Below, one piece after another: positions 2,675 through 16,987 of a DNA stretch of 28,837 nucleotides (positions are counted from its first letter, which is position 1; the number at the start of each line of letters is the position of its first letter). The notes under the pieces were generated by a model. It had not been told where the DNA came from, did no database searches, and saw only the letters and a list, made by a program, of their open reading frames with translations. Position numbers and translations under genes: made by a program. The DNA is from a virus. The stretch spans positions 1-28,837 of the IMG/VR virus record IMGVR_UViG_3300010367_000065. One strand, 5' to 3'.

Positions 2675-3087
2675 GCGCTCATCACCGCCCTGTAGATCAC
2701 CGGGTCGTAGACGCGCCCACCGCAGGCGAGCTCGCCGAGCACCACGCGAGTGATCCAGTCGTCGGTGACCCCGGACTCACGTGCGAGGCGGATCGCGTCT
2801 TCCAGGTCCGTCCACGCCTGGTCGGGCTTCCACTTCTTCGGGCGGATGCGTCCGGGCCAGACGCCGCGGGTGGACACGGCGCGGGCGAACGAGATCACGT
2901 GGTTGCGGCGTAGCCGTCGGCTCAGGCAGTCGCCCCACTCGTCGCCCGGGATCGGGCCGTGGCCGGTCATGTAGTCGTAGCGGCGGACGTCGCGTCCGCA
3001 CCCCTCGCAGCGTTGCTTCGCGTCCCAGTCGACGGCTGGGGGTGGTTCGGGCTTGGGGTCGTCCCAGAGCGTCAGCTGCTCACCCAT
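2671..3087 (-). CDS. Hypothetical protein with CxxC motif
   Basis: A 138-residue protein. Residues 26 to 31 hold CEGCGR, possibly half of a zinc site completed by the later Cys and His residues. A basic stretch (SRRLRRNH) is followed by WPGRIRPKKWKPDQAW and a C-terminal helical region ending CGGRVYDPVIYRAVMSA. The ATG at 3087 overlaps the end of the upstream DNA-binding gene by 8 bp. I do not recognise a family. Its place between DNA-binding and zinc proteins suggests a DNA-metabolism role at most. Confidence 0.7.
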   Translation of the reverse strand: MGEQLTLWDDPKPEPPPAVDWDAKQRCEGCGRDVRRYDYMTGHGPIPGDEWGDCLSRRLRRNHVISFARAVSTRGVWPGRIRPKKWKPDQAWTDLEDAIRLARESGVTDDWITRVVLGELACGGRVYDPVIYRAVMSA

Positions 3088-4060
3088 GCTGCTGCTCGTA
3101 CTGGTCGAGGACCTGCAACGGGATCACACCACGCGGCGACACCTTGAGACCCTGCTCGAGCGCCCACGCACGGACCACGGTCGACTTCACACCGAGGGCG
3201 GCGAGGCGGGTGCGGATCTCGCCGAGGGTGTCACCGCCACCAGACTGCCCCTCGCGGGCTTCGATGCCGTGGCGGGCCATGATGCACTGGACGACTTTCA
3301 CCCCGATCCCGAGACGTTGGGCCACCCGGGTCTGTGAAAGGTGTTCGTCGACGTAGAGCCGGCGGACGTCCTCAATCTCGGTGGGGGTGTAGTCGCGGCG
3401 GTTGTTGCCGCCGGAGTTCGTCTTGCGGTCGTCCCGCAGCTGCACACCGGCGTCGAGCAGGTGGGTGCGTACGGTGGCCTTGGTGTAGCCGAGGTCCGCT
3501 GCGGTCTGCGCGATCGTCCTGCCGGACTCGTACGCCTGGACGATCATGTTGGTGTCGGCTCTGGGGCGCCCCTTGGACTTGGCGGGGGTGCGGGGCTTGG
3601 CTGGTTTCGTCTTTGGCTCTCTGGGCCGGGTCGGTGGCGTCGGCTGTGGCCTCGACGTCGCGACGGTGCGGAGGTGCTGCAGTGCGGCGACGACGAGCTC
3701 ACGTGCGGAGCGTGTGGCCGGGTCGGTGGCGTCGGCTGTGGCCTCGAGCAGGCGCACGACCGGGTGTGTGACATCTGCCGGAATATCGTTCGTGGGAATG
3801 TCAGCCGGGCGCGCTTCGATCGTCTCGACGCGTTGGCGGGCTTCCTCGTGCGCTGCGGTGTTGTCGGCGTACGCCTGGGCGCGTGTCGCCGGCATCTCGG
3901 AGACCGGCTCTGGTGCGGCGTCGACGGGCTCGGGGTCGGGTGCGGTGTGCTTCGCCCAGTCCAACCCGGTCGGGCGTCGTGTCGGCTCGCTGTAGGTCGT
4001 GACGGGCAGCGGGCGAGGCCAGTCGCTGCCGACGATCGCGGACCCGCCAGCGCCGTTCAC
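3080..4060 (-). CDS. Multi-module DNA-binding protein: two HTH segments and a C-terminal Lsr2-like domain
   Basis: A 326-residue protein. Residues 1 to about 145 are Pro/Ala/Asp-rich and probably flexible. A basic linker (PKTKPAKPRTPAKSKGRPR, about 149 to 167) includes an AT-hook-like GRP core. Residues about 168 to 205 form a resolvase-type HTH (TIAQTAADLGYTKATVRTHL), about 225 to 262 a second HTH (SQTRVAQRLGIGVKVVQ), and about 294 to 325 match the Lsr2 C-terminal DNA-binding domain (VRAWALEQGLKVSPRG followed by IP). The GTG at 4060 overlaps the upstream stop as GTGA, preferred to a GTG 9 bases earlier. Lsr2 is an actinobacterial xenogeneic silencer, so this protein may counter, mimic or recruit it, or act as a phage regulator. 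Confidence 0.75.
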   Translation of the reverse strand: MNGAGGSAIVGSDWPRPLPVTTYSEPTRRPTGLDWAKHTAPDPEPVDAAPEPVSEMPATRAQAYADNTAAHEEARQRVETIEARPADIPTNDIPADVTHPVVRLLEATADATDPATRSARELVVAALQHLRTVATSRPQPTPPTRPREPKTKPAKPRTPAKSKGRPRADTNMIVQAYESGRTIAQTAADLGYTKATVRTHLLDAGVQLRDDRKTNSGGNNRRDYTPTEIEDVRRLYVDEHLSQTRVAQRLGIGVKVVQCIMARHGIEAREGQSGGGDTLGEIRTRLAALGVKSTVVRAWALEQGLKVSPRGVIPLQVLDQYEQQHG

Positions 4061-4188
4061 GACCCGCACCCGTCAGAGCAGCCGCAGGGTACGAGCTCGT
4101 CGGCGTCGAAGTCCCACGCCGTGCCGTTGCAGTTGCGATGCTTCCCGGCTTCACACTCCGGGCAAACCCACGATGAGGGAGTAGGCAT
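4057..4188 (-). CDS. Very small Cys-rich putative zinc protein
   Basis: A 43-residue frame, easily missed. It starts [17 protein letters not shown], continues with [17 protein letters not shown] and ends GCSDGCGS. It has seven Cys, including CPEC and CGC, plus a His, a pattern recurring in actinophage mini-proteins and suggesting one or two zinc sites. It lies between the repeat protein and the Lsr2-like gene with a 4-bp GTGA overlap downstream, so the operon would have an unusual gap without it. Its ATG (4188..4186) sits inside a 14-bp palindrome. Confidence 0.7.
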
Positions 4189-10307: not shown

Positions 10308-10418
10308 TCAGGTGATGGTGTAGATGCCGAGGAAGACCAGCCCGACGAGCAGGCCGATCACGTAGGCGGTGAGCGCGAGGGCCAGGACGAACACGACGGC
10401 GGCGAGCAGGTCACGCAT
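10308..10418 (-). CDS. Tiny single-span membrane protein
   Basis: A 36-residue frame that is almost entirely hydrophobic: MRDLLAAVVFVLALALTAYV, then IGLLVGLVFLGIYTIT. It would form one long or two short membrane helices. The ATG (10418) overlaps the GIY-YIG stop by 8 bp, and without it a 129-bp gap would break the tightly packed operon. Codon use is like its neighbours. Function is unknown. Confidence 0.6.
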   Translation of the reverse strand: MRDLLAAVVFVLALALTAYVIGLLVGLVFLGIYTIT

Positions 10419-10716
10419 GAGCGCGCTCCCTGTAGATCGCCTGGCCGCAGGCTCGCGCGATCTCGACGGCTGTCATGCCGAAGCGGTCAGCGATGTTGTG
10501 GCGGGGCTGCAGCGTGCGAATGAGATCGCGCTCAAGTGCTTCCGCGTCTGCGCGGGGCAGGCGCTCGGAGAGCACGACGTCGACCACCTGCGGCCACCAC
10601 GCCCGCGTGAAGCGGTGCTGTCGAATCCGCTCGGCCGGGTCTGCCGAGACGCCGACATAGAGCGGGGCGCCGCGGGCATCCAGCAGCTGGTACACGATGC
10701 CTGTCGAGACCTTCAT
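10411..10716 (-). CDS. GIY-YIG nuclease domain protein
   Basis: A 101-residue single-domain protein. It has the GIY-YIG elements in order: G-I-V-Y at residues 6 to 9, Y-V-G at 20 to 22, the catalytic-type Arg at 30 (PAERIRQH), an acidic helix (ADAEALERDLIRTL) and a terminal Asn in RHNI. Such proteins cut or nick DNA. Standalone copies in actinophages may act in recombination or host-DNA breakdown. The ATG at 10716 overlaps the excisionase stop (ATGA); the upstream in-frame sequence is a shadow. It is the second gene transcribed from the early promoter. Confidence 0.75.
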   Translation of the reverse strand: MKVSTGIVYQLLDARGAPLYVGVSADPAERIRQHRFTRAWWPQVVDVVLSERLPRADAEALERDLIRTLQPRHNIADRFGMTAVEIARACGQAIYRERAHA

Positions 10717-10925
10717 GAGGTGGCCCGCGTCGGTGCGAGCTGGGCGAGCTTCTCGAGGTCGCCACGGCGGAACACGCGGTAGCCGCCTCCGGGCGTACGG
10801 CCTGCCGTGATGAGTCCGCGGGCTTCCCAGCGGCGGAGGGTGGCGGGCGAGCACCGGGCGACGACTGCAGCGTCAGCGATGAGCAGGAGGTCATCCTCGC
10901 TGGTCTGGGTATCCCTATCGGTCAT
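10713..10925 (-). CDS. MerR-like HTH protein: putative excisionase or Cro-like regulator
   Basis: A 70-residue protein with a winged HTH of the MerR/excisionase type: LLLIADAAVVARCSPATLRR, WEARGLITAGRT, then GGGYRVFRRGDLEKL. It is the first gene of the early operon, divergent from the repressor, as expected of an excisionase or a Cro-like switch protein in actinophages. The ATG lies only 8 bases after its predicted -10 box, so the message is nearly leaderless. The first codons contain a third operator-like site (10907..10919). Excisionase versus Cro function cannot be decided from sequence. Confidence 0.7.
   Translation of the reverse strand: MTDRDTQTSEDDLLLIADAAVVARCSPATLRRWEARGLITAGRTPGGGYRVFRRGDLEKLAQLAPTRATS
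10907..10919. promoter_or_regulatory. Third operator-like site
   Basis: GGGTATCCCTATC (minus strand GATAGGGATACCC) repeats the TAGGGAT core of the two promoter operators and lies in the first codons of the excisionase/Cro-like gene. It may bind the repressor cooperatively with the promoter sites. Confidence 0.5.
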
Positions 10926-10933
10926 GGGACGAG

Positions 10934-10962
10934 ACAGTAGGCATCCCTATCAACGTTGTCAA
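10934..10962 (-). promoter_or_regulatory. Early (lytic) promoter with embedded operator
   Basis: On the minus strand TTGACA (10962..10957), a 17-base spacer and TACTGT (10939..10934) form a good sigma-70-type promoter. The ATG of the HTH gene lies 8 bases downstream. The operator GATAGGGATGCCTAC (10951..10937) covers the spacer and -10 start, so a bound repressor would block it. Confidence 0.7.
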
Positions 10963-10984
10963 GGGCTATGCAAGAGTGTCGTAC

Positions 10985-10997
10985 CTATCATTGATAG
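10985..10997. promoter_or_regulatory. Inverted repeat CTATCA-T-TGATAG between the promoters
   Basis: A perfect 6-bp-arm palindrome midway between the two divergent promoters. Its GATAG arms match the outer part of the operators, so it may be a further regulator site. Confidence 0.45.
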
Positions 10998-11000
10998 ACC

Positions 11001-11030
11001 TTGACAAGGTTGAGTAGGGATCTCTACCTT
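11001..11030 (+). promoter_or_regulatory. Repressor promoter with embedded operator
   Basis: TTGACA (11001..11006), an 18-base spacer and TACCTT (11025..11030) precede the repressor ATG at 11038 by 7 bases, implying a leaderless or near-leaderless transcript. The spacer holds GTAGGGATCTCTAC (11014..11027), nearly the same as the operator in the opposing promoter. This suggests autoregulation or competition with a Cro-like protein. Confidence 0.7.
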
Positions 11031-11037
11031 GAATCTC

Positions 11038-11415
11038 ATGACAACAAACGTCGCCTATCTCCCCGGCACCGTCCCCACATGGACGTTTGCTGAGCGCGTA
11101 CGCAAGGTCCGCAGGGACCAAGGACTCACCCAGGCAGCATTCGCCGACCAGCTCGACGTCGGAGAGAAGGCATACGCCGCCTGGGAGTCGGGCAAGAACG
11201 AACCCGGCAGCCTCGTCGACGTCGCCGTGAAGCTCGAGCAGACCACCGGCGTCCCGCGCCAGTGGTTCCTCGGCTGGCTCGACGAGCCCACGAGCCCGAC
11301 CGACGGTGGTGAGCGCGCCCGGCAGGATTCGAACCTGCGACCTAGAGATTACAAAGGCGAAGGACGCGTTCTGGAACTTCCCCGACTTTCCCCTGCAATC
11401 GCAGTGGCGGCGTGA
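11038..11415 (+). CDS. XRE-family immunity repressor with attP-encoded C-terminal tail
   Basis: A 125-residue protein. Residues about 17 to 72 form an XRE helix-turn-helix (VRRDQGLTQAAFADQLDVGE, KAYAAWESGKNEP), followed by PRQWFLGWLDEP. Residues about 92 to 103 (ERARQDSNLRPR) are encoded by tRNA-complementary attP DNA. The final 20 or so residues end in PAIAVAA, an ssrA-like hydrophobic Ala-Ala terminus. The ATG at 11038 is preferred over TTG 11029, which overlaps the -10 box. In mycobacteriophage BPs an equivalent layout makes the virion-form repressor unstable and the integrated, truncated form stable. The stop overlaps the integrase GTG. Confidence 0.82.
   Translation: MTTNVAYLPGTVPTWTFAERVRKVRRDQGLTQAAFADQLDVGEKAYAAWESGKNEPGSLVDVAVKLEQTTGVPRQWFLGWLDEPTSPTDGGERARQDSNLRPRDYKGEGRVLELPRLSPAIAVAA
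11313..11344. other. attP core (tRNA 3'-half identity segment)
   Basis: The minus strand reads TAGGTCGCAGGTTCGAATCC and continues to TGCCGGGCGCGC. It contains a perfect tRNA T-arm (GCAGG, TTCGAAT loop, CCTGC) and acceptor 3' strand, but the upstream sequence does not form the rest of a tRNA. That is what an attachment core restoring a host tRNA after integration looks like. From memory, the acceptor strand fits actinobacterial tRNA-Arg with a GCGCCCG 5' end, possibly the TCT isoacceptor. The exact core limits need the host sequence; identity may extend a few bases past 11344. Confidence 0.8.
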
Positions 11416-12353
11416 CCGGCACCGTAACGTCGCTCCCTGTTACCCGTTGGTTAACTATGGGAGCAATCCGGGGGGATTCAGACGGCAACGCCGTCCCTCT
11501 CGTCGCGTCTTGGCGTACGTGGATGCGTGCCCAGTCGTGGGCCGACCGGACGATCGACGACCGTATCGACCTCGTGCTCAGGGTCGCCCGACTGTCGGAT
11601 CGGCCGGCGGAGCAGCTCGACGTCGACGACGTCCTCGGGTTCCTGTCGGGGTCGTTCCAGGCGTCGACAAGGCAGACGTATCACGTGAATCTGCAGTCGT
11701 GGTTCCGGTGGTTGGAGCTCGTCGGGATCCGTGACGACAACCCAATGCGGCGGCTGTCGATCCCGAAGGCGAAGCGACGCGCGCCGAGGACGATCGCGAC
11801 GACACACGTCGTGCGCCTGCTGAACACCCGCATGCACGCCAGGACGAGGACGATGTGTCTGCTCGCCGCGTATCAGGGGTTGCGGGTGTCGGAGGTCGCG
11901 AAGGTGCGGGGCGCCGATATCGACCCGGTGGCGCGTGAGCTGCGGGTGATCGGCAAGGGCAACGTCGACGCCGTGCTGCCGCTGCACCCGCTGATCGAGG
12001 CGGAGGCGTCACGGTACGGGTCGGGGTGGTGGTTCCCGCAGTGGAAGGCGAACAAGGCCGGCGAGACCGGCGGGCACGTGCTCGGCCGGTCGGTGTCGAC
12101 GATCATCGGGAACGTGATGCGCCGGTCCGGGATCCCGGGGTCGGCTCACTCGTTGCGGCACTGGTACGCGACCGAGCTGCTTCGCGCCGGCGTGGACTGT
12201 CGGATCGTGATGGAGCTGATGCGGCACGCCTCGCTCGCGACGACGCAGAGGTATCTCCACGTGGACGACACACAGCGCCGTGCTGGGCTGTTGCTGCTGC
12301 CGGATGCCACCGGGCCGCTGGAGAGGGCACAGCGGCTCATTGTGGCTGCGTAG
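11412..12353 (+). CDS. int: Tyrosine integrase
   Basis: A 313-residue tyrosine recombinase. An N-terminal core-binding SAM-like domain covers about residues 28 to 120. The catalytic domain carries R158 (AYQGLRVSEV), K182 (GKGN), H246-x-x-R249 (HSLRHWYATE), H272 (MRHASLATTQ) and Y281 (QRYLHV), a complete active site. It would recombine attP with a host tRNA attB. GTG 11412 overlaps the repressor stop (GTGA), implying coupled translation; ATG 11457 is an internal alternative that would remain usable after integration separates int from the repressor promoter. The C-terminus RLIVAA is ssrA-like, as on the repressor. Confidence 0.93.
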   Translation: MTGTVTSLPVTRWLTMGAIRGDSDGNAVPLVASWRTWMRAQSWADRTIDDRIDLVLRVARLSDRPAEQLDVDDVLGFLSGSFQASTRQTYHVNLQSWFRWLELVGIRDDNPMRRLSIPKAKRRAPRTIATTHVVRLLNTRMHARTRTMCLLAAYQGLRVSEVAKVRGADIDPVARELRVIGKGNVDAVLPLHPLIEAEASRYGSGWWFPQWKANKAGETGGHVLGRSVSTIIGNVMRRSGIPGSAHSLRHWYATELLRAGVDCRIVMELMRHASLATTQRYLHVDDTQRRAGLLLLPDATGPLERAQRLIVAA

Positions 12354-12368: not shown

Positions 12369-12860
12369 CTAGCCGACCTTCTTCCACGTGCCGCAGTCGT
12401 TCGACAGCTCGAGGTACTGGCCCTTGTTCACGTCTACGGTCTGCGGCCCGCCACCGTTGTGGTTCGCCACGATGTTGTTGCCGTTCGGGTCGGAGTTGAT
12501 CGACCAGTAGCAGCCGTCGGACGCGTCGGCGTTCTTCCACTTGCCGGGCTTCATATCGACGCCGATCTCGAACGTCCCGTCACCCTCGATCGTGTTGGCC
12601 TTGGCCTTCTGTTCGGCGCGTGCGAGTTGCCGTTCACGTACGTCGAGCTCGTCGGTGCGTTGGGAGAGCTCGGTGCGTTCGTCGTCCAGCGAGGACTCGC
12701 GCTTGTCGAGATCTGCGGTGGTGCTCCCGCGGCTGGACTTGACGGCCGGCTTCTCGTCCTCGCCGCTGCTGCCAGCAGCACCGATTCCTACCCCGATGAG
12801 TAGAGCGATCACGCCGACGATCGTCGGTAGCAGCCAGGCGCGGGACTTCGTCTCAGTCAT
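12369..12860 (-). CDS. Membrane-anchored coiled-coil protein with C-terminal extracellular-type domain
   Basis: A 163-residue protein. An N-terminal membrane helix or uncleaved signal anchor lies at residues 9 to 29 (LLPTIVGVIALLIGVGIGAA). A charged coiled-coil region follows at about 50 to 88 (DLDKRESSLDDERTELSQRT). The C-terminal beta domain, GDGTFEIGVDMKPGKW through CYWSINSD to YLELSNDCGTWKKVG, resembles an actinobacterial secreted-protein domain. It has two Cys that could pair outside the cell. It lies at the end of the late strand, convergent with int and next to the immunity genes, so expression from the prophage or a superinfection-exclusion role is conceivable. This is not shown by sequence. 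Confidence 0.7.
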   Translation of the reverse strand: MTETKSRAWLLPTIVGVIALLIGVGIGAAGSSGEDEKPAVKSSRGSTTADLDKRESSLDDERTELSQRTDELDVRERQLARAEQKAKANTIEGDGTFEIGVDMKPGKWKNADASDGCYWSINSDPNGNNIVANHNGGGPQTVDVNKGQYLELSNDCGTWKKVG

Positions 12861-13141: not shown

Positions 13142-13927
13142 TCACGGGTTGTGCTGGTCGAGGTAGTGGACGTAGTGACCCCAGAACGGGCCACCGGGGT
13201 GCGTCGGGTTCTCCGCGATGTTCATCGCCGACTGCATCGTGAGCTCGTCGTGGTTGTTGACCGCGTCGACGACCTCGGCGGCGATGCCGAGCGCCGCCGC
13301 CAGCGTCGTGACCTCGGCCGGGAGCACGGTCGTGTCGGCCGACGAGTAGAGCAACCGCACCGGGGTGCCGTTCGCGACGAGGACCGGCGCGTGCGTGTTC
13401 ACGAGGTCGGACTGTGCGGGGAGCGCGGCCGGGTAGGTCACTCCCCAGGCTGCGGCGATGGTCGCGCGGAACCCTGCCCGGTTGGCCTGGTAGACGGCGT
13501 TGATGTCCGACAGGGGCATCACGCTCATGATCGACGCGACCTTGGTCGGGTTGAGGCTGGCGTACCGCATGGCGAGCTCGTTGCCCATCGAGACGCCGAC
13601 GAGGTGCACCCGGGACGCGTCGACGCCGGGGAAAGCGTCGAGCACGGTGCGCGCGGACTCGACGCACGTCATCCCGAGGTCGTTGCCCATTGTGTCGCCA
13701 CCCATCCACCCAGAGATCGAGGGAATGTTGTGGTGGTAGAGGATCCCCGGCAGGGTCGCGTGGGCGTAGAACGACGCCGACGCGAACGCATCGCGGGCGG
13801 TGCTCCCGGCGCCGTGGAGCAGGACCACCGGGTAGCCGTCGTACGGCTCGGCCGGCATGTTGAGGTAGTCGACCTCGCCGACCCGGATCCGGCCCGTCTT
13901 CGTCGTGGCGTCCACCCGTGTCTTCAT
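13142..13927 (-). CDS. Alpha/beta hydrolase (esterase/lipase type) in the tail-tip cassette
   Basis: A 261-residue alpha/beta hydrolase. The oxyanion-loop motif HGAG is at 38 to 41, the nucleophile elbow G-V-S-M-G gives Ser113, and Asp198 (SSADTT) and His226 (NNHDEL) complete a plausible triad. The gene directly follows a tip protein (ATGA overlap) in the late operon, after the holin and minor tail genes. The enzyme may cleave host-envelope esters during adsorption, or cell-envelope lipids at lysis like the LysB mycolyl esterases of mycobacteriophages. It lacks the GYSQG-type motif usual in LysB. No signal peptide is seen. Confidence 0.8.
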   Translation of the reverse strand: MKTRVDATTKTGRIRVGEVDYLNMPAEPYDGYPVVLLHGAGSTARDAFASASFYAHATLPGILYHHNIPSISGWMGGDTMGNDLGMTCVESARTVLDAFPGVDASRVHLVGVSMGNELAMRYASLNPTKVASIMSVMPLSDINAVYQANRAGFRATIAAAWGVTYPAALPAQSDLVNTHAPVLVANGTPVRLLYSSADTTVLPAEVTTLAAALGIAAEVVDAVNNHDELTMQSAMNIAENPTHPGGPFWGHYVHYLDQHNP

Positions 13928-15393: not shown

Positions 15394-16566
15394 CTACTTC
15401 TTCCCCACGACGACGATCGTCGGGAGGTGGTTGCTCAGCTTCTTCTTCGCCGTCGTGGTCGACTGCGTGGCCTTCACGACCGGCCGCGATCGGTGGACCT
15501 TCACGTGATCCGTACGCGGGCCCTTCGGCGCGCTGCCGGACCACCCACAGATCGAAGAGAACGCCCTACTTGACGACGTGATCGCCTGGTCGAACGCGTC
15601 AACCCGGGTCGGCTCGTACGCCTTTTCCAGCACCCACGCGGCGCTGTTGTCGTCGTCGCCGTAGAAGATGCGATCCGACGGGACCTCGCAGACCTTCGCG
15701 AACGCCTCGGCGGCTGCGATCTCCTGCTTGGCCTGGGTGACGCGGGTCGTGTCGTACTTGTCGCCGTCCCGGTACTCGAGGTGCCCGGCGCTGATGATCG
15801 CGGCGTTCGGGCTGTTCGACGGCCAGACCTCGGCGAGCACGACCTGCTTGTCATCGTTCGCGGGCCCGTCCTCGGCGAGCGTCACGACCTTGGTGCGCCC
15901 GACCTTCATGCCCTTGCGGGTCACGATGCTGCGGCCGTCCTTGGAGATCGCGAGGTGGTACGCGGCCTTGGTCAGCTTGGCGCCGAACTCGTCACGGCGG
16001 GGCTCGGGGACCTCGGTGAGGCAGTAGACGTCGGCGCCGATGCGCTTGATCTCGTCGACGATCTTCTGCTCGATGGTGTTCCAGTGCGCCTGCCCGTAGT
16101 CCTTGTCGAACCCGGCGAGCGGCCACAGGCACAGCGTGAACCACGTCCCGGACGGCTTGGGCTTGGGCGCCGCGGCCTGGTCGTCGAGGAACTCGGGCTT
16201 CCGGTCGGCGGTGTACGAGTAGGCGGTGAACTCGCCGTAGTGCAGGTGGGGGCCGGTGGCGTTGCCAGTCTGGCCGGACTTGCCGAGGATCTGGCCCATC
16301 TTGATGGGCTGCCCGGAGTAGACCGACTCGGCCGACAGGTGGGCGTAGATGTGGTAGATCCCCTGGGACTTGAGCACGACGTGGATCCCGAACGCGACAC
16401 CCATGCCGCCTCGGCCGGCGTGGACGACTGTGCCGGCGACGGTCGCGCGGACGGACGTGCCGGTGGGGCACCCGAAGTCGATCCCGCGGTGAATGTAGTC
16501 CGGCCGGGATGACATCTTCTCCCGGTATCCCAGGGTGACGGGGTACTTGCTATCGACTGGCCTCAT
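15394..16566 (-). CDS. Endolysin: M23 peptidase fused to an endonuclease/exonuclease/phosphatase-like domain
   Basis: A 390-residue protein. Residues 1 to about 128 are an M23 (LytM-type) zinc peptidase: H26-R-G-I-D30, H76 in YAH, and H107-L-H109 are the expected ligands and catalytic His. It would cut peptidoglycan cross-links. After a Pro/Lys linker (about 131 to 140), residues about 142 to 365 have the DNase I-like EEP pattern: LTEV with E185, AGHLEYRDG with H262, GDDDN (D304 to N307) and T-D353-H354-V. No signal peptide is seen, so release would depend on the adjacent holin. A good ribosome site (GTGAGGAA) supports ATG 16566. The second domain's substrate is unknown. Confidence 0.82.
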   Translation of the reverse strand: MRPVDSKYPVTLGYREKMSSRPDYIHRGIDFGCPTGTSVRATVAGTVVHAGRGGMGVAFGIHVVLKSQGIYHIYAHLSAESVYSGQPIKMGQILGKSGQTGNATGPHLHYGEFTAYSYTADRKPEFLDDQAAAPKPKPSGTWFTLCLWPLAGFDKDYGQAHWNTIEQKIVDEIKRIGADVYCLTEVPEPRRDEFGAKLTKAAYHLAISKDGRSIVTRKGMKVGRTKVVTLAEDGPANDDKQVVLAEVWPSNSPNAAIISAGHLEYRDGDKYDTTRVTQAKQEIAAAEAFAKVCEVPSDRIFYGDDDNSAAWVLEKAYEPTRVDAFDQAITSSSRAFSSICGWSGSAPKGPRTDHVKVHRSRPVVKATQSTTTAKKKLSNHLPTIVVVGKK

Positions 16567-16576
16567 GATCGGTTCC

Positions 16577-16987
16577 TCACTTCTTCTCGGGCTCGAGCTG
16601 CTGCGTGACGCAGGCACGGATTTGGGTGACGGTCTGCTCGCCGGGCAGGTCCCCGCAGGCGACGGTGATCGCGGTGATTTCGTTGATGGAGCTCACGGCG
16701 CCCGCGGTCTGCCTCTGGCCGTTCTCGTAGCAATCCCGGCCGGGGGTCACGCATCCCGCGATGAGGTTCGACAGGTCGATGAGCCGCTGCTGCGAAGGTG
16801 AGCCCTCCTGCTGCGTTGCCCGGATCTCGTCGATGGTGTTGCCCTGTCGGGCGATGACGACGCCCAGCACAACGAATAGGGCAGACACGGCAACGGCGAT
16901 GAACACGATCAGGCCGCGCTTCCACAGTTCGGCGCGGCCGACACGGTGCTCGATGGCAGGGTCGAGGTGGAGCTGGTGTTCGGTCAT
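16577..16987 (-). CDS. Membrane protein of the lysis/tail cassette
   Basis: A 136-residue protein. An N-terminal His/Glu-rich tail is followed by a strong membrane helix at about residues 26 to 46 (LIVFIAVAVSALFVVLGVVI). The soluble region (NTIDEIRATQQEGSPSQQRL) then contains four Cys suitable for disulfides outside the cell. The pattern is one I recall from small late proteins of actinophages directly before the endolysin. A spanin-like or lysis-timing role is possible but not demonstrable. It overlaps the upstream coiled-coil membrane gene as ATGA. Confidence 0.65.
   Translation of the reverse strand: MTEHQLHLDPAIEHRVGRAELWKRGLIVFIAVAVSALFVVLGVVIARQGNTIDEIRATQQEGSPSQQRLIDLSNLIAGCVTPGRDCYENGQRQTAGAVSSINEITAITVACGDLPGEQTVTQIRACVTQQLEPEKK

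Follow-up and report, generated by a model that had tools for sequence, protein, structure and literature searches.

The window, i.e., the whole stretch of 28,837 nucleotides analyzed here, carries an immunity cassette which we consider, with a probability of about 90%, to be an integration-dependent immunity switch of the type known from mycobacteriophage BPs. Judged by every sequence feature that allows a conclusive test, the window is a member of the BPs kind. The initial annotation had proposed a BPs-like layout with a repressor becoming functional only after integration. This proposal is supported at the sequence level as well as by natural prophages of distant relatives, and its functional part would follow from the experiments performed on BPs. 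The features referred to throughout are given below, with the basis of each assignment in brackets.

11038..11415, + strand: rep, XRE/HTH_3 immunity repressor, virion form of 125 aa (ORF, Pfam, PHROG, tblastn)
11038-11349, + strand: predicted lysogen form of rep, 104 aa (in silico integration)
11312..11351, - strand (tRNA strand): attP common core, 40 bp, corresponding to the 3' half of the host tRNA-Arg(TCT) (sequence identity)
11350..11352, + strand: switch codon 105, TAC (Tyr) in attP and TAG (stop) after integration (in silico junction, core matches)
11350..11412, + strand: virion-only rep tail of 21 residues, YKGEGRVLELPRLSPAIAVAA, with a predicted ssrA-like degron end (sequence)
11412..12353, + strand: int, tyrosine integrase of 313 aa ending in RLIVAA (Pfam Phage_integrase, 2e-21)
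10713..10925, - strand: divergent MerR-like gene, 70 aa, candidate excisionase or early regulator in the Cro position (Pfam MerR_1, 2.3e-8)
10950..11013, no strand assigned: candidate operator, 20-nt inverted repeat (arms 10950-10969 and 10994-11013, 90% complementary)

Gene arrangement of the immunity cassette

The rep gene starts with an ATG at 11038 and ends with a stop codon at 11413-11415, its virion form having the C-terminus ...RPRDYKGEGRVLELPRLSPAIAVAA with AIAVAA as the final residues. An HTH_3 domain covers residues 21-77 (Pfam HTH_3, 4.9e-9), the best PHROG is 2328, transcriptional repressor (1.2e-19), and the nearest matches among named phages in a tblastn search are immunity repressors of Arthrobacter, Gordonia (Obliviate type), and Brevibacterium phages; the assignment as an XRE repressor gene is hence confirmed. 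The same holds true for the position of int directly downstream, the GTG start of which overlaps the rep stop by 4 bp (GTGA, 11412-11415). Both genes are adjacent on the same strand, consistent with one operon. The integrase contains the motifs GLRxSE, HxLRH, and HASxxTTxxYxH, usual for tyrosine recombinases, and is most similar among named phages to the integrases of Brujita and the cluster P mycobacteriophages (43% identity). Just the catalytic domain was matched by Pfam, the absent match to an arm-binding domain being a weak indicator, and a search for arm-type sites revealed no convincing direct repeats that occur to the left as well as to the right of the core.

The divergent gene had been described as Cro/Xis-like. 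Its Xis-like character is retained on the basis of a weak match to PHROG 66, “excisionase and transcriptional regulator” (3.8e-5), next to the MerR-like one; Cro is at most a putative role. Two divergent TTGACA boxes (10957-10962 on the minus and 11001-11006 on the plus strand), recognized by eye and script only, are located within the inverted repeat. A consensus promoter scan called no promoter in the 10950..11013 region. Taken together, the repeat and its boxes plausibly represent a candidate operator and promoter pair. Directly downstream of the MerR/Xis-like gene, a gene with a GIY-YIG endonuclease domain was found (10411-10716; PHROG 3312, 8.8e-12).

The same cassette is present, with 97.6% identity, on a second viral contig (L002/L043; IMGVR 3300031911_000296), the rep part of which differs from that of the window by three synonymous changes only. 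The gene just 3' of int differs between these phages, which are otherwise 95-98% identical: the window encodes a putative membrane-anchored protein of 163 aa (12369-12860), the second contig a small putative membrane protein (L043 1261-1582). This slot adjoining the immunity cassette looks like a site for a moron or prophage-expressed cargo.

Attachment core and candidate host

Within the tRNA, the attP core spans the region from the discriminator and acceptor stem to the anticodon loop. A tRNA 3'-half segment inside rep had already been noticed at 11313..11344; its presence was verified, its actual extent being larger (11312-11351). These 40 bp are identical to tRNA-Arg(TCT) in an Aeromicrobium MAG (L010) and a Nocardioidaceae MAG (L030), and 39 bp thereof (11313-11351) are identical in Aeromicrobium sp. 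Root344 (L020). Aeromicrobium and the one Nocardioidaceae MAG thereby show the longest core identity including the acceptor stem (39-40 bp). Besides the core, the three sequences share just one stretch of at least 16 bp with the window, a single 16-mer, which excludes chance as the source of the tRNA segment. With the 31-bp core as query, GTDB was scanned at one genome per species (84,980 species). The 38 matches all belong to Actinomycetota by record title, and a tRNA-Arg(TCT) gene was present at the match in 17 out of 17 loci scanned with ARAGORN. This bears out the earlier expectation of an actinobacterial tRNA-Arg(TCT) as attB. A plasmid search with the core gave no match.

From the length of the core identity alone, the Aeromicrobium lineage is predicted as the candidate host, an assignment we regard as rather probable. 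One genome of the candidate host family (G050) contains a relative of the window terminase with 49% identity, compared with only about 29% for the best match among named phages. A further genome of the Nocardioidaceae family (G174, C1:5623943-5642272) harbors a prophage related to the window phage, with integrase (34%) and terminase (44%) matches 17 kb apart in a window-like orientation; its repressor was not found.

In principle, the core might also be a chance or captured tRNA fragment without a role in integration, the true attP being located elsewhere. In line with this, 342 genomes of the candidate host family (the Aeromicrobium family) yielded neither a lysogen of the window phage nor one of a close relative, an integrase search of these genomes revealing nothing above 38% identity. 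However, the core terminates at the anticodon loop, which is typical of attachment cores; it lies 61 bp ahead of int and is also conserved in L043. Moreover, in the relatives described below, the corresponding position of the homologous gene holds the real attachment junction. An incidental tRNA fragment is consequently very improbable, and we regard the segment as the attP core.

Several other carriers of related sequences were evaluated and rejected. The tRNA-Arg of phage Grayson was dismissed as the core donor because it diverges in the acceptor stem, at which end the match is also shorter, and L044 and L046, obtained in a viral scan with the core, are phage-encoded tRNA-Arg genes rather than cassette relatives. 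In a megablast of the whole window to phages, the sole match was likewise a phage tRNA-Arg. L045 represents the end of an Actinopolyspora provirus with the tRNA-Arg(TCT) core at 359-390; as its integrase is a different one (48% identity over 48 residues only), it was rejected as a cassette relative, and the tRNA-Arg(TCT) site is thus used by unrelated elements. Actinopolyspora genomes contain several additional, partial copies of the core (L013, L019, L034, and L037).

Switch codon and in silico integration

The 40-bp core match ends at the second base of Tyr codon 105. At the following position, 11352, the phage has a C, in contrast to all 38 bacterial sequences matched by the 31-bp core, which have a G; TAC is hence converted to TAG upon integration. 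Where exactly the crossover occurs within the core is immaterial because all 40 bp are identical. Integration was reproduced in silico with 13 attB sequences, and in each of them rep was truncated by a junction stop to 104 residues ending in ...ARQDSNLRPRD; a truncation by a junction stop is also seen in natural lysogens of relatives. This form keeps the whole HTH domain and loses the 21-residue tail ending in AVAA. The initial annotation had expected these lengths (about 104 residues after integration versus 125 in the virion), the loss of the AVAA tail, and an immediate stop after the residues RPTD; all of this was recovered except for the residue string, which reads RPRD. The predicted lysogen junction consists of the rep sequence followed by CCTAGAGATTAGAAGGC.

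At the rep-side in silico junction, a complete tRNA-Arg(TCT) was rebuilt in five out of five hosts (ARAGORN), and no tRNA was detected in attP or at the int-side junction of these hosts. This restoration bears on the option of a tRNA-dependent lysogeny, in which the host tRNA is lost upon integration and substituted by one from the phage. A tRNA gene as attB would suit this option. The 40-bp core, on the other hand, restores tRNA-Arg, compared with cores of about 10 bp in that system (PMC10865867), and no tRNA is encoded in the window, which may be incomplete. We therefore rate such a replacement as extremely improbable, even more so than an incidental tRNA fragment.

C-terminal tails and predicted degradation

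An ssrA-like C-terminus is present on both virion proteins, with Rep ending in AVAA and Int in QRLIVAA (IVAA). Only three of the 45 predicted genes in the window end in AA, two of which are rep and int, and the frequency of VAA in the proteome is about 0.0009. The tmRNA tag of the candidate host is ADSKRTDFALAA, and Aeromicrobium tags end in TDFALAA. As a counterpoint, the degrons are short, and AVAA and IVAA are not identical to ALAA. In BPs, the 103-aa repressor is stable and active, and the 136-aa form is degraded via an ssrA-like tag (PMC4557955). By analogy, the tails of Rep and Int would fit recognition by a protease handling ssrA-tagged proteins, the 125-aa form would be degraded, and the 104-aa form would act as repressor.

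Considering that proteolysis of the 125-aa form is a prediction, attP might instead be located in rep without a degron switch, both repressor forms being active and the truncation being a neutral consequence of site placement. Some integration-dependent repressors of M. abscessus are indeed devoid of an AA tail (PMC8092301). Yet, the shared VAA end of rep and int at such a low proteome frequency, the alanine-rich ends of reconstructed virion forms from independent relatives, and the degradation demonstrated experimentally in BPs speak against neutrality. We thus consider a neutral truncation unlikely and favor the degron switch.

Natural prophages of distant relatives

When 342 Aeromicrobium-family genomes and 395 genomes from the class were searched with the 104-aa repressor, six distinct homologues were obtained. 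In five of the six genomes, the reading frame of the homologue terminates within an oppositely oriented tRNA gene (Asn-GTT, Lys-CTT, and three times Arg-ACG), with stops at tRNA positions 32-41, around the anticodon. Two genomes (G508 and G564) carry a related integrase on the same strand 21-22 kb from the repressor, as would be predicted for a prophage inserted between these two genes, and the 35-41 bp core of the tRNA 3' half is repeated as a direct repeat upstream of int. A third genome (G449) has a 45-bp core repeated upstream of int, with rep and int being located on different contigs. In all three, the repeat extends as far as base 2 of the repressor stop codon, which is thus completed by the host base. 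Rejoining of the prophage ends in silico restored a Trp or Tyr codon and led to longer virion repressors ending in GRAA, RAVA, and LAAA. Imperfect tags among the relatives are one virion tail (RAVA) and one integrase tail (ATVA). In G117, the integrase is 33 kb away and the attachment repeat is less clear (18 bp with a gap); reconstruction from this weaker repeat gave the same outcome with an AVAA tail. At the level of sequence, these prophages constitute a test of the mechanism independent of the window, and together with the window they indicate that integration-dependent immunity can be recognized, and the lysogen form predicted, from genomic data alone.

In one branch, the repressors read the T-arm in antisense as DSNxxPxD, followed by a codon antisense to nucleotides 35-37 of the tRNA. 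A tentative and rather doubtful extension is that the host anticodon itself might be the immunity switch and limit the tRNAs usable as attB, as a stop would arise only if the anticodon ends with U and has U or C in the middle (Asn, Lys, Ser-GCU, and Arg-UCU/CCU). The window (Arg-TCT, TAG) as well as the Asn-GTT and Lys-CTT prophages (TAA) fit this rule, and virion repressors of Thr-targeting phages have Tyr at the corresponding position. As a conjecture, the C at 11352 may possibly mark attP as a relic of tRNA-Thr(TGT).

Proposed mechanism

As long as the genome is in its virion or replicating form, rep and int would be expressed together as an operon, and Rep and Int, both with an ssrA-like VAA tail, would be proteolyzed, so that the lytic genes stay on. 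If enough Int survives, it would catalyze recombination between the rep-internal core and the tRNA-Arg(TCT) gene of the host. The first host base past the core, G instead of C, would complete the TAG, antisense to anticodon-loop nucleotides 35-37, and the degron-free 104-aa repressor with its HTH domain would accumulate and silence the divergent early gene. Integration would at the same time restore the host tRNA-Arg and separate int from the rep promoter. The window represents an unusually clean case in which a single base is predicted to decide between a tagged and an untagged repressor.

Further genes outside the cassette were additionally recorded. An alpha/beta hydrolase (13142-13927; Abhydrolase_6, 2.9e-7), which may be a tail or lysis enzyme degrading the envelope, is encoded in the structural-gene arm close to a gene for an M23 peptidase (15394-16617), and a phage nucleoid-protein-like gene at 3080-4069 has a C-terminal Lsr2-type DNA-binding domain (2e-9).

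Comparison with known systems

Integration-dependent immunity has been described for Brujita, Donovan, and Obliviate or their clusters (PMC4929511, PMC5559632, PMC9635641). The window shares its gene order with Brujita (cluster I) and Donovan (cluster P), the source of the similar integrases mentioned above; these phages have virion repressors with ESNPRPIHYQTT...HAA/LAA and integrases ending in SAA. In contrast, the N-terminal domains of their repressors are unrelated or distant, and the attB of cluster P is tRNA-Thr (PMC9635641). Gordonia phage Obliviate and cluster CV share a repressor homologue (38% identity) and an Xis-like divergent gene with the window. In Obliviate, for which integration-dependent immunity was predicted by its authors (PMC4929511), Rep ends in ADAA and Int in RLAA. 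Unlike in the window, one small gene is located between rep and int, and attB is tRNA-Thr (PMC5559632). In the M. abscessus prophages MabC, MabK, MabN, and MabO, the first bacterial base juxtaposed to phage sequence creates the stop, leaving the repressor 20-35 residues shorter once integrated (PMC8092301); these differ from the window in their hosts and, in some cases, by an attB outside tRNA genes.

BPs (cluster G; Broussard et al. 2013) likewise has attP in rep, int directly downstream, a tRNA-Arg attB, and ssrA-like tails on Rep and Int. In both, the first host base changes the third codon base to give a stop, as reported for BPs (PMC9262239), with repressor lengths of 103 versus 136 aa in BPs and 104 versus 125 aa in the window. 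Differences are the codon used (Tyr TAC to TAG in the window, Cys to stop in BPs) at another place in the tRNA, the Gordonia/Arthrobacter-like lineage of Rep, the MerR/Xis-like divergent gene, and a candidate host from the Nocardioidaceae. The switch principle itself, established since 2013, is already known from mycobacterial phages; the window provides a clear new example from an uncultivated phage, for which a host of the Aeromicrobium lineage is predicted, and extends the system accordingly.
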